Positions 3,282 through 28,289 of a DNA stretch of 32,390 nt are shown one piece after another. The DNA comes from Cyclobacteriaceae bacterium. GTDB lineage: Bacteria; Bacteroidota; Bacteroidia; Cytophagales; Cyclobacteriaceae. Location: assembly GCA_025363495.1 (NCBI GenBank), contig JANYDR010000127.1, positions 1 to 32,390 on the forward strand, written 5' to 3'. The translations under genes were made by a program, and so were the position numbers. Position 1 is the stretch's first letter, and every line of letters begins with the position of its first letter. The notes below the pieces were generated by a model. The model did no database searches. It was not told where the DNA came from and worked only from the letters and a program-made list of their open reading frames with translations.

Positions 3282-4148
3282 TTATCGTTTAATCAGTTTC
3301 ACCCTGGCGTCGTCAGCCCTGATATCTACTTTAGCGGTACCACTTGCCAGCATGAGCTTGGTCCGGTTTTCAGAATCTTCTTCGGTTGTAAATTGTCCTT
3401 CCGTGATCACACGTCCATCATCATGATGAATGTCAAATTTACCACCACCCTTTGTGATGGTGAATGAAATCAAACCATCCTGAGCATCAATAAAGTATTC
3501 ACCATTGTCGGCGATTGATGTTTCAATGATGAGATCACCATCATCCACTTTTGCATCAATGAAAGTAAAGTTGGCGTTTTTGATTTTAACATCACTGTCA
3601 TCGCCAGTCAATTCCAAGGAACCTTTGCCCTCGTCCATCGTAATGTCACCATCATCCAGGCGGAACAGGAACTTGCTTCCCGAGCATTGAGCTAAATCAA
3701 CATCAGCATCATCTAATTGTAAAGAGATAGCGCCATTGATATTTTTTATCCAATAGTCTCCATCATCTCCCTTTACTTTCAGGCTTGTTCCCTCGGGCGC
3801 TTCGATTGTAATAGTATATTTTTCATAGTGGTAACCGATCATTCCGATTGATACAGAATTAGATCGTTCCCGTATTTCAAGATCACCACTTTGCTCTGTG
3901 ACGTCAACAGAAAATTCATCGTGCCCTCCGAAGACAATTCCCTTTGTGCTCACCTCACGATCAATCTTTACATGCGCTGTCTTACGGGTGGAACCGGTGA
4001 TGTCCACCTTGGCATCCGAACAATTTAATTCTACTGTTCCCGTGGAACTTAGGTTGTACTCTTTATCGAGATGAAACTTTCCATCAATATTTTGAGCAGC
4101 CACCGAAAAGCTCAAAAACATGCAAAAAACTGATATAATTGATTTCAT
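3282..4148 (-). CDS. Secreted DUF4097-like repeat protein
   Basis: 288 aa with signal peptide (MKSIISVFCMFLSFSVAAQ) and repeated DDGD/DDAD/DDSD motifs at 18-21 aa spacing, as in DUF4097-type beta-strand repeats. Confidence 0.7.
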   Translation of the reverse strand: MKSIISVFCMFLSFSVAAQNIDGKFHLDKEYNLSSTGTVELNCSDAKVDITGSTRKTAHVKIDREVSTKGIVFGGHDEFSVDVTEQSGDLEIRERSNSVSIGMIGYHYEKYTITIEAPEGTSLKVKGDDGDYWIKNINGAISLQLDDADVDLAQCSGSKFLFRLDDGDITMDEGKGSLELTGDDSDVKIKNANFTFIDAKVDDGDLIIETSIADNGEYFIDAQDGLISFTITKGGGKFDIHHDDGRVITEGQFTTEEDSENRTKLMLASGTAKVDIRADDARVKLIKR

Positions 4149-5018: not shown

Positions 5019-5173
5019 AGATTTAGAATAATGTAATTGATCAAAGATATGGAAAAGCATAAAGCCGAAAGCTTAAAGCGAAAAGCTCGTTTGCAGAAGA
5101 ACCAGTGTAATAGTCAATTTTCCCTTTATTTTTCCGGTGGTCATAAAGACAGAATATTTTATTGCGTGTTTGC

Positions 5174-5191: not shown

Positions 5192-5276
5192 AGCTTGAAG
5201 CTCAAAGTGGAAAGCAGAAAGCTTAAAGCCAGGGTAATCAAGCTTTACACTTTCAGCTTTCCACTTTAAGCTTTTA
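5192..5276. repeat. Stuttered inverted repeat built from AAAGTGGAAAGC/AAGCTTAAAGC words
   Basis: Left arm 5192-5229 AGCTTGAAGCTCAAAGTGGAAAGCAGAAAGCTTAAAGC; right arm 5239-5276, reverse complement AAAAGCTTAAAGTGGAAAGCTGAAAGTGTAAAGCTTGA. Confidence 0.8.
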
Positions 5277-7199: not shown

Positions 7200-7232
7200 A
7201 GTGGAAAGCTGAAAGCAAAAAGTGGAAAGCTG
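7200..7232 (+). repeat. Short direct repeat AGTGGAAAGCTG x2
   Basis: Copies at 7200-7211 and 7221-7232; the 16-mer AGTGGAAAGCTGAAAG (7200-7215) occurs inverted at 5250-5265. Confidence 0.75.
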
Positions 7233-13341: not shown

Positions 13342-13357
13342 CACGGCAGGCATTTTT

Positions 13358-13394
13358 CCTCACCCCGGCCCTCTCCTAAAAGGAGAGGGGGAGG
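13358..13394. repeat. GC-rich palindrome CCCTCTCCT-AAA-AGGAGAGGG (intergenic repeat or terminator-like hairpin)
   Basis: Perfect 9-bp stem 13369-13377/13381-13389 extended by CCTC...GAGG; lies just past the 13341 stop, no clear T-tract. Confidence 0.7.
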
Positions 13395-13562
13395 TCCTAG
13401 CAAACAATATTTACGTTTTGTTAGCTTTTCTTTTTTAGAATTAGGAACTTTCTAACGTGATTGTGCGTCACACTGTCACGGTTATTCATTGAGAAGATCT
13501 TGTATCGGAGTTGATAATCTCGCTCACCTTATAGGAAGCCGCTCGGCGAGACGACATCACTG

Positions 13563-13589: not shown

Positions 13590-13620
13590 GACATGAAAGG
13601 TGACTAGACGGGGGTTTAAC

Positions 13621-13763
13621 TAGGTTCTAATTAGGTTCTAACTAGGTTCCAATTAGGTTGCTACTAGGTTCCAACTAGGTCTCCAATAGGTCCCGACTAC
13701 CTCGTAAATAGGTTCCCATCTCATACTAATTAGGTTTCCTTCTCAATTTACTTAGGTTTTGTA
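13621..13763 (+). repeat. 11-bp phased TAGGTT array (consensus about TAGGTTCYAAY)
   Basis: Units start at 13621, 13632, 13643, 13654, 13665, 13676, 13687, 13698 (TACCT variant), 13709, 13731, 13753; all offsets are multiples of 11. Confidence 0.93.
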
Positions 13764-13860
13764 TTGACCTTATTCGGAGAACTATTAAATTCATATCGGA
13801 CCAATTGGCTGTCATGCCCGGACCAGCTTCATAGGCAGGCACTACTTAAACCCACTTGTT

Positions 13861-14416
13861 ATGAGAAAATTGAAAGATGAGACAGGCCCCAGCGGTATTT
13901 TCGGCGAAAGCATAAGTATCAGGTGAATGGCCGGGTTATCATTACCAACGGCCCCAAAAAGAAAAGAGGTGAACCAACGGCAAAAGAGCTTGCCCATCGC
14001 GCACGGGTTAGTGAGGCGGCATCGTATGCAAAGAATGTCGGAATGAGGAGTCACGGGCGTTATATGCTACCCGCGTGAGAAAAAAGCATGAGTCACCCCA
14101 ATCAGTAGCAATTCGCGACTTCCTAAATCCTCCAACGGTGGATGCGATCGAAGCCCCGAAATATCATGGAGTGATTGGTGATATTATACGCGTCCATGCC
14201 ACCGACGACTTCCAGGTAATAAAAGTAACGATCACTATTACCGGTGCTGACGGTGTGGTCATTGAGGAGGGCGATGCTATAGATGGTAGGCCTGCGCGGA
14301 TCAATCAATGGGAATACAAAGCTGTCGCTACAAACCCAACACTGAAAGGCACCAAGATCATGGCGGTTGCTTACGACCGACCGGGTAATAAGGGAATGGC
14401 GGAGATAGTGTTGTAA
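13861..14416 (+). pseudogene. Frameshifted remnant of a conserved hypothetical protein gene
   Basis: Consecutive coding-like segments in three frames: MRKLKDETGPSGIFGES (13861), KYQVNGRVIITNGPKKKRGEPTAKELAHRARVSEAASYAKN (from 13914), ECRNEESRALYATRVRKKHESPQSVAIRDFLNPP...AYDRPGNKGMAEIVL (to 14416). Confidence 0.75.
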
Positions 14417-21362: not shown

Positions 21363-21707
21363 ATGAATGTAATTGTCCGCTTTCTTCTCTCGGGAGTTGC
21401 TGTAATGCTCACCGCATACCTCTTGCCGGGTGTACATGTTCAGGACTATTGGGCCGCCCTCTTGGTGGCGATTCTTATATCACTTTCGAATGTAATTCTT
21501 AAACCGATTTTAGTTATTTTAACAATACCGATTACTGTTATCACACTCGGGCTTTTCTTACTGGTCATCAACGCCGTCATTATTTTGATAGTAGATTATT
21601 TCGTTGATACATTCGCTGTTGACGGATTTTGGTGGGCGCTGGCTTTTTCTCTTATTCTGTCGCTGTTCAATGGTATGTTTAGTGACTTGACGAAGGAAAG
21701 ACAGTAG
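21363..21707 (+). CDS. Phage holin family 4/YvlD-like small membrane protein
   Basis: 114 aa, four hydrophobic segments; LLSGVAVMLTAYLLPGV, SNVILKPILVILTIPITVITLGLFLLVINAVIILIVDYFV. Confidence 0.88.
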   Translation: MNVIVRFLLSGVAVMLTAYLLPGVHVQDYWAALLVAILISLSNVILKPILVILTIPITVITLGLFLLVINAVIILIVDYFVDTFAVDGFWWALAFSLILSLFNGMFSDLTKERQ

Positions 21708-21995
21708 GCAATTGGCAAAAGGCAGTAGGCAAAGATGGTTCATGGGTTAATTGCTATTTCCTTCGAATGAAATAATAGGGTGACCTGACGAAGGAACCAA
21801 AGTAGGCAGTAGGCAAAATGCAGTAGGCAAAGTGTGGGGCAAGGGCTTGAATATTATTCCTTCGGAGTAAAGTCATTGAACACAGATAAACATTGAAGCA
21901 GACTTTATTATCGCTTTATACCAAAACAATAAAAGTTAATTATTAAACAATCTTTTAAACAATCTTTGCCTACTGCCCTCTTGCCTACTGCCAAC
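21701..21995. repeat. GGCAGTAGGCAAA / TTTGCCTACTGCC repeat element
   Basis: Stuttered forward copies near 21702-21734 and 21800-21832; inverted copies TTTGCCTACTGCC...TTGCCTACTGCC near 21966-21993. Confidence 0.8.
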
Positions 21996-22075
21996 TTCTC
22001 TAAAAAGCCACTCATCCTATCCACACTTCCCCGGACATCCATTTTCCATAACTTCACTCTCATATAACTCTTCCC

Positions 22076-26779: not shown

Positions 26780-28234
26780 ATGAAAAATCTCTTATTAAAA
26801 CTTGGCGTTCTATCAATGGCCCTGGGTCTCTTTACGGCCTGCCAGAAGAAAGAAACGGAGAGCGAAACATTTGCCCGTATAAACAAGGAAGTGCTTCAGA
26901 ATTCCAAAGCATACTCAACGCTTAAAGAAGCCACCTCTACGATCGGTCACCGCCTTACCGGATCCGACAATGGTCATAAGGCTGAAGAGTATACCTATAA
27001 TAAATTCAAAGAATATGGTTTTGACGATGTGAAATTCCAGGAGTTCGAAGTGGAAGCCTGGGCACGGGGAAGTATCGCCGTTACAATTGATGGAGATTCT
27101 GTTTCTGCTGTTACGCTTGGACATTCTCCTATCTATTCAGACGTTACCGGTGAAGTGGTTGACATGGGCAACGGATTGGAAATGGATTATGAAGGCCGAC
27201 AAGATGCAGTAAAGGGCAAGATCGCATTCATTTACATCGGCATATTGGATGGAAGCAAAGAAGGTATTCACAATCTTCACCGCAGTGAGAAAACCGCCAT
27301 CGCCATTAATCACGGAGCAAAGGGTGTTATTATTTTCAATCAGGTTGATAAAGGCGTATTGCTTACAGGCACAGCATCGGTTACAGGAGAATTAATTGCA
27401 ATTCCCGCAGTATGTATCAGCAAAGAAAGTGGAACAGCGTTGAAAGCAAAATTAAAATCCAAAAAGATACAAGCGCACATTGTGATGACAAATCACAGTG
27501 ACATGATCAAAGCGAGAAACGTGATTGCTGCGCTGAAAGGATCTGAGCTTCCCAACGAACGCATTGTTATTGGCGGGCATCTCGATTCATGGGATCTTGC
27601 AACGGGGGCCATCGATAACGGCATAGGATCATTTTCAATTCTTGATATGGCACGTGCTTTCAAGGCAAATAAACTTGCGCCTAAGAGAACGATAGAGTTC
27701 GTGATGTTCATGGGAGAAGAACAGGGTTTGCTTGGATCAAGATATATGGTTGACCAGGCCGTGAAAAACGGATCAATAGAGAATATAAAATATATGATGA
27801 ACTGCGATATGAGCGGCAATCCTATCGGCATCAACGCTGGTGGCAAACTGACGGACACTACATTTTATAAAACGCTTGGAGCTGAGATTCAAAAGATCGA
27901 TACGTTATTTAAAAATAAATTTTCAAAGGGATCAGGATTGCATAGCGATCACCAGCCGTTTATGCTGGAGGGAGTTCCGGTTGTTTCTATGATCAGCAAC
28001 CTCGACCGCTCGATCTATGGATGTTATCATTCAGACTGCGATGATTTTAACCTTGTAAATGAAGAGCATTTAAAGACAACAGCCCGTTTTGGCACAATGA
28101 TTTTGTACGGACTGGCAAATGCTGATAACCTTCCGGCTAAGAAGATGGATAGTGAAACCACGAAACAGTTTATGATAGACAATAATCTGAAAGAGCCATT
28201 GATTCTTGCCGGAGATTGGAAATGGGAGAAGTAG
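26780..28234 (+). CDS. M28 family metallopeptidase with PA domain, lipoprotein
   Basis: Lipobox LGLFTAC; VIGGHLDSWDLATGAIDNGIG, MFMGEEQGLLGSRYM, NCDMSGNP, GCYHSDCDDF zinc-ligand motifs. Confidence 0.93.
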   Translation: MKNLLLKLGVLSMALGLFTACQKKETESETFARINKEVLQNSKAYSTLKEATSTIGHRLTGSDNGHKAEEYTYNKFKEYGFDDVKFQEFEVEAWARGSIAVTIDGDSVSAVTLGHSPIYSDVTGEVVDMGNGLEMDYEGRQDAVKGKIAFIYIGILDGSKEGIHNLHRSEKTAIAINHGAKGVIIFNQVDKGVLLTGTASVTGELIAIPAVCISKESGTALKAKLKSKKIQAHIVMTNHSDMIKARNVIAALKGSELPNERIVIGGHLDSWDLATGAIDNGIGSFSILDMARAFKANKLAPKRTIEFVMFMGEEQGLLGSRYMVDQAVKNGSIENIKYMMNCDMSGNPIGINAGGKLTDTTFYKTLGAEIQKIDTLFKNKFSKGSGLHSDHQPFMLEGVPVVSMISNLDRSIYGCYHSDCDDFNLVNEEHLKTTARFGTMILYGLANADNLPAKKMDSETTKQFMIDNNLKEPLILAGDWKWEK

Positions 28235-28246
28235 TTGTGAATTATA

Positions 28247-28289
28247 AGTTATGAATTATGAAAGTGGCGGAGTCTCATAATTCATAACT
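28247..28289. repeat. Perfect 15-bp inverted repeat AGTTATGAATTATGA-N13-TCATAATTCATAACT
   Basis: Arms 28247-28261 and 28275-28289, between convergent gene ends. Confidence 0.9.

Follow-up and report, generated by a model that had tools for sequence, protein, structure and literature searches.

Helically phased tandem repeats with locus-specific words upstream of DUF6266-related genes in Bacteroidota: possible cis-acting recognition sites

The parC repeats of ParR/parC systems have a period of 11 bp in R1 and 10 bp in pB171, with words that vary from family to family and determine specificity (PMC9426499). In R388, the 9-bp stbDRs, each followed by 2 nt to give an 11-bp step, lie around the operon promoter, are bound by the operon's own product, StbA, and have further copies in other promoters (PMC3098194). 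CarH operators are tandem 11-bp direct repeats (nnnnTnnACAn) that an oligomer binds on one face (PMC9304148), and the bind locus of pMV158 RepB has three tandem repeats of 11 bp that lie on the same side of the DNA at intervals of one helical turn (PMC9943647).

Here we analyse an 11-bp array in a stretch of 32,390 nucleotides from a Cyclobacteriaceae bacterium (hereafter the window), together with its relatives in other genomes. These loci resemble ParR/parC in having 10- or 11-bp repeats upstream of genes, with locus-specific words, and StbA/stbDRs in having helically spaced repeats upstream of a gene that is assumed here to encode the binder. They differ from ParR/parC in that the arrays are chromosomal and occupy several sites, neither a ParM-like gene (at the loci examined) nor a ribbon-helix-helix fold was recognised. 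They differ from StbA/stbDRs in that neither a plasmid match nor a Pfam relative for the family was found. The traits sought for a ParMRC- or StbA-type system, a plasmid location or an adjacent motor gene, were not found, the neighbours of the family genes being varied and mostly metabolic. Whereas CarH operators present one fixed word to one regulator in 3-5 repeats, the words here are locus-specific and the arrays reach 19 units, and unlike the RepB bind locus, which belongs to a replication origin, these loci have no recognised replicon features. The literature searched yielded no paper on DUF6266 or on such arrays.

The array in the window and the decaying locus downstream

Positions 13621-13763 (plus strand) hold 13 slots of 11 bp with the word TAGGTT(C), which bears out the strict 11-bp grid described in the initial annotation; decay is partial and sets in at slot 6. 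The slots, at 13621+11n, read TAGGTTCTAAT, TAGGTTCTAAC, TAGGTTCCAAT, TAGGTTGCTAC, TAGGTTCCAAC, TAGGTCTCCAA and TAGGTCCCGAC, followed by TACCTCGTAAA, TAGGTTCCCAT, CTCATACTAAT, TAGGTTTCCTT, CTCAATTTACT and TAGGTTTTGTA; eight carry an exact TAGGTT, two TAGGTC and one TACCTC, and two are CTCA slots. Self-match within the array is 0.72 at lag 22 and 0.55 at lag 11, against a background of about 0.25, so that the 22-bp repeat is the stronger, and TRF also detects both periods. The corresponding lag scores are 53.4 and 37.4; no lag exceeded 14.8 in 300 Markov resamples of the region, and nothing at other positions or lags of the window approaches the scores of the array. The array is real and far above chance. 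A partial, degenerate unit, GGGGGTTTAAC, occupies positions 13610-13620 (plus strand), and in the related genome G066 its counterpart, AGTTTAAT, precedes the first unit. Over a local match of 67 bp, the array and the gene-linked array of G066 are 88% identical. There was no Rfam match for a structured RNA, and the reading as an RNA element was dropped.

A TTGACC-N16-TAAATT promoter-like pair had been suggested directly after the array, and half of it persists in the comparison with G066. TAAATT falls within a promoter-like block around ATTAAATTCATATCGGA (13775-13800, plus strand) that is 88.5% identical to the G066 homologue and that we infer to be the putative -10/start region, whereas TTGACC corresponds there to TGGATC. 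A TATCGGA-like box is seen after gene-less arrays as well. About 100 bp past the array, positions 13861-14416 (plus strand) had been taken for a single gene. They are instead the remnant of a DUF6266-related gene that is not a single open frame, having two small frame-breaking deletions relative to its intact G066 homologue (L023); the C-terminal part, which encodes an Ig-like domain, is still open (14075-14416, plus strand) and 68% identical to L023. An assembly error could still be the source of these deletions. Two parts of the segment are duplicated on contig C350 of G000, namely 13403-13447 (plus strand, 96%) and 13706-13930 (plus strand, 94%), the latter comprising the array tail, the promoter block and the 5' end of the gene and directly abutting position 13447 there. 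The C350 copy also carries the first of the two deletions. The window copy is decaying, with a disrupted gene, an eroded array and a partial duplicate at C350. In C350 (L021) the fused parts span 3796-4063, and the flanks are unrelated to those of the window.

Other repeats also occur in the window. A REP-like palindrome (CCGGCCCTCTCC...GGAGAGGGGG) lies at 13345-13395, with 85-94% copies in the same genome and in several genomes of the genus. Tandem repeats, mostly of 7 or 14 bp, lie in or near intergenic DNA at 5053-5087, 5240-5274, 7204-7232, 21706-21996 and 28233-28262. The 7-bp class is also present in genus genomes that lack the family gene, and it is therefore a phenomenon separate from the 10/11-bp arrays.

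The linked gene family and its upstream arrays

The family of the window gene is patchy, with matches in 4 of 63 genus genomes (8 in the window's own genome, 5 in G066, 9 in G022 and 2 in G035). Twenty members align well and share a basic N-terminus with 'SGxxGxxVxxR...RP', central helices and an Ig-like C-terminal half with 'DRPGN'; the net charge of the first 60 residues lies between +5 and +13 in all 20 (mean +8.6). No Pfam family covers these 20 close homologues, their scores against PF19781 (DUF6266) falling below Pfam thresholds, and PF19781 has no match in the window's own genome. The link to DUF6266 runs through L066 and L067, which are matched both by the window-family profile and by PF19781; the window-gene family differs from DUF6266 in its Ig-like C-terminal half. 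AlphaFold2 models (pLDDT 82.5 and 81.4) predict a hairpin, helices and an Ig-like sandwich, of which the helical and Ig-like parts alone are confident, the first ~17 residues being very low and the hairpin low. Foldseek matched Ig folds alone, generically and from the Ig-like part. Neither a known DNA-binding fold in the model nor a solved homologue by sequence was found. There were no plasmid or phage matches, and identity as a plasmid or phage gene was dropped. At one locus (L109, 4500-8200), two tandem family genes have as neighbours an Amidase_3 gene and one that matches DUF4248 weakly, and the same region holds a second repeat element common to L085 and L114.

Arrays recur upstream of homologues of the window gene in its own genome, in the genus, in the family and in some other families, as had been anticipated, but their words differ: for example, CTAGGTTCNNN, TAACAGTTTC (10 bp), TCGATGCAAA (10 bp), CACGGTCACCC, AAGTCCGGTGA and TGGACACATAA, among others. 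A TAGGTT-N5-TAGGTT match outside the window, on contig C109, immediately precedes a paralogue of the gene that neighbours the window array. For superfamily genes of the window's family (f1), we scored the 450 bp upstream against a fixed threshold and counted lags of 10-12 and 20-23 as helical. Such repeats were found at 15 of 20 close homologues and at 12 of 24 DUF6266 (PF19781) genes, which thus share the arrays, against 22 of 865 control ORFs (2.5%); it should be noted that the loci behind the 15/20 and 12/24 counts are phylogenetically non-independent and that the lag set was picked after the first examples, the DUF6266 genes serving as a later test of it. Repeats at non-helical lags were found at 1 of 20, 0 of 24 and 14 of 865, respectively. 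In other families, class-wide DUF6266 genes have arrays at L270 (GCTAACTATAT, six units), L274 (period 10), L275 and L277. The association of array and gene is common, not universal: in family f16 three of 20 homologues reach the threshold and none has a clear 10/11-bp array, and in f11 none of three homologues has an upstream array. A family gene from f22 (L070) has a CTAGGTT-type 11-bp array and a protein unlike the TAGGTT clade; its word may reflect either chance or a preferred word.

Further elements accompany subsets of the arrays. The box TTTGACCCAAGCA, or a close variant, directly follows the arrays of L109, L210, L219, L202 and L033. A leader of ~100 bp with the block CCTAATAATT stands immediately before the array in the clade of L038, L041, L087, L026, L039 and L031; in L087, no gene accompanies the leader and array. 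Word similarity tracks protein similarity overall (Mantel p=0.006) and loses significance below 55% identity (p=0.21); co-divergence of word and protein is weak, its significance coming from close pairs alone.

A sequence-blind tandem scan of 800 kb of G066, in stretches picked to include some family genes, found ~14 helical-period arrays, and 400 kb of G022, in stretches around family genes, yielded ~8. No period 10/11 array was found in 400 kb of the gene-free genomes G083 and G023, nor in 384 kb from 20 further gene-free genomes of the genus, giving zero in 784 kb from 22 same-genus genomes. The 384-kb set contained a few arrays of period 20-22, the strongest being a 21-bp array at a contig end.

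The initial annotation had also noted a conserved word with a drifting spacer, which can now be quantified over 73 units and 26 arrays. Among 73 units from six CTAGGTT loci, the successive columns contain 0,0,2,0,0,0,0,6 and then 32,40,35 mismatches (p=2e-49), with CTAGGTTC near-invariant and the three spacer bases varying freely; the non-uniformity persists with 15 distinct units (p=7e-8). Across the 26 arrays, the core-then-spacer layout gives a sum of 0.01 against -5.31 (sd 1.76) in permutations, about 3 sd above them. The repeated word, which would be read once per helical turn, is by these column patterns under constraint. The CTAGGTT spacers tend to switch, from one unit to the next, between triplets ending in G and triplets ending in C, which accounts for the 22-bp period.

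Dispersed copies and competing explanations

Arrays also occur away from the gene. The three-unit TAGGTT pattern is found 102 times in G066, three times in the window's own genome and not at all in the other 61 genus genomes, and reversed-pattern controls gave none. Three words in G066 are gene-linked once and dispersed elsewhere: CTAGGTTC and TTAGGTTC each precede a single family gene and recur at several intergenic sites that lack the gene, and the 10-bp word ACAGTT has one gene-linked array and five further sites. No ACAGTT arrays were found in G000 or G022. In the window's own genome, the assembly of which is incomplete, the word GATGC was found at its gene alone. Dispersed arrays occur in both orientations and often outside a promoter position.

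Several observations might suggest that array and flanks form a mobile or selfish, MITE-like repeat, full when gene-linked and shortened when gene-less, and bound by a mobilising protein. Two gene-less ACAGTT arrays copy the gene-linked segment at 80-87% identity, the homology covering ~90 bp of left flank and the array up to a TTTG box and stopping before the gene; three gene-less CTAGGTT arrays share flanks, part of the window segment recurs at C350, and the family is patchy in the genus. However, no transposase or recombinase domain was found in the family, and neither terminal inverted repeats nor target duplications were recognised by eye in three copies. Several gene-less CTAGGTT arrays have the array alone in common, and many arrays of DUF6266 genes have 3-5 units without known gene-less copies. 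We regard mobility as an unlikely reading, albeit one that retains some weight. Functionless satellites produced by neutral slippage are far less credible. Unit number does vary in register between copies, and the window array is eroding; slippage would homogenise every column alike, so the uneven columns speak against it, as do the enrichment upstream of one gene family, the fact that other periods hardly occur there and the lack of 10/11-bp arrays in related gene-free genomes. Column constraint and positional association together rule out slippage alone, and the array is not the one-off satellite that the initial annotation had named as a refutation.

The arrays might also be operators of one or more unlinked host regulators (OmpR/PhoB-, LytTR- or CarH-like) that happen to control these genes. 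The word ACAGTT, which we take to recall LytTR sites, counts in favour of this improbable reading. Direct repeats of 11 bp are, moreover, classical for CarH (PMC9304148). An OmpR/PhoB, SARP or CarH operator would lead one to expect a common word across the arrays of one genome, and none was found among paralogues: their words are unrelated and their periods are 10 or 11, so that a single regulator is unlikely to serve all of them. One shared host regulator was rejected on these grounds, and the OmpR/PhoB or SARP binder first suggested for the array is not supported. The sole gene consistently linked to the arrays is, in addition, the family gene.

A locus-specific reader and its implications

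Our preferred explanation, to which we give about an even chance, is that the array serves in cis as the recognition site of a gene module related to DUF6266 in Bacteroidota. The locus-specific words point to a previously unreported, word-specific form of protein-DNA recognition. Since paralogues within one genome have unrelated words and the family gene is the only gene linked to the arrays, the reader is probably locus-specific. By analogy with the systems above, a word-specific protein would contact the same face of the DNA at every helical turn and form an oligomer along the array; one contact per turn, a free spacer and 10- or 11-bp phasing fit the prediction of same-face cooperative binding. 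The candidate binder is the product of the linked gene, with its basic N-terminal arm (+5 to +13), hairpin, helices and Ig-like domain. This product may regulate the promoter of its own gene, immediately after the array, and may also occupy the dispersed copies. Given the TTTGACCCAAGCA box in a subset of loci and the block at 13775-13800 after the window array, control of the linked promoter would be the simplest output.

A broader possibility, which we hold only tentatively, is that these loci form a large, fast-diversifying set of self-specific pairs, in which each DUF6266-like protein reads its own helix-phased word and the pairs are mutually blind, like plasmid partition or immunity groups, with gene-less arrays as docking sites or selfish copies. 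The arrays provide a first concrete functional lead for the DUF6266-like family, recasting its function as a question of binding that can be tested and that brings its own controls, as there are many natural protein-word pairs and several per genome. If the linked protein does read its word, the family would offer a naturally occurring set of orthogonal DNA-binding specificities built on a scaffold that has gone unrecognised.
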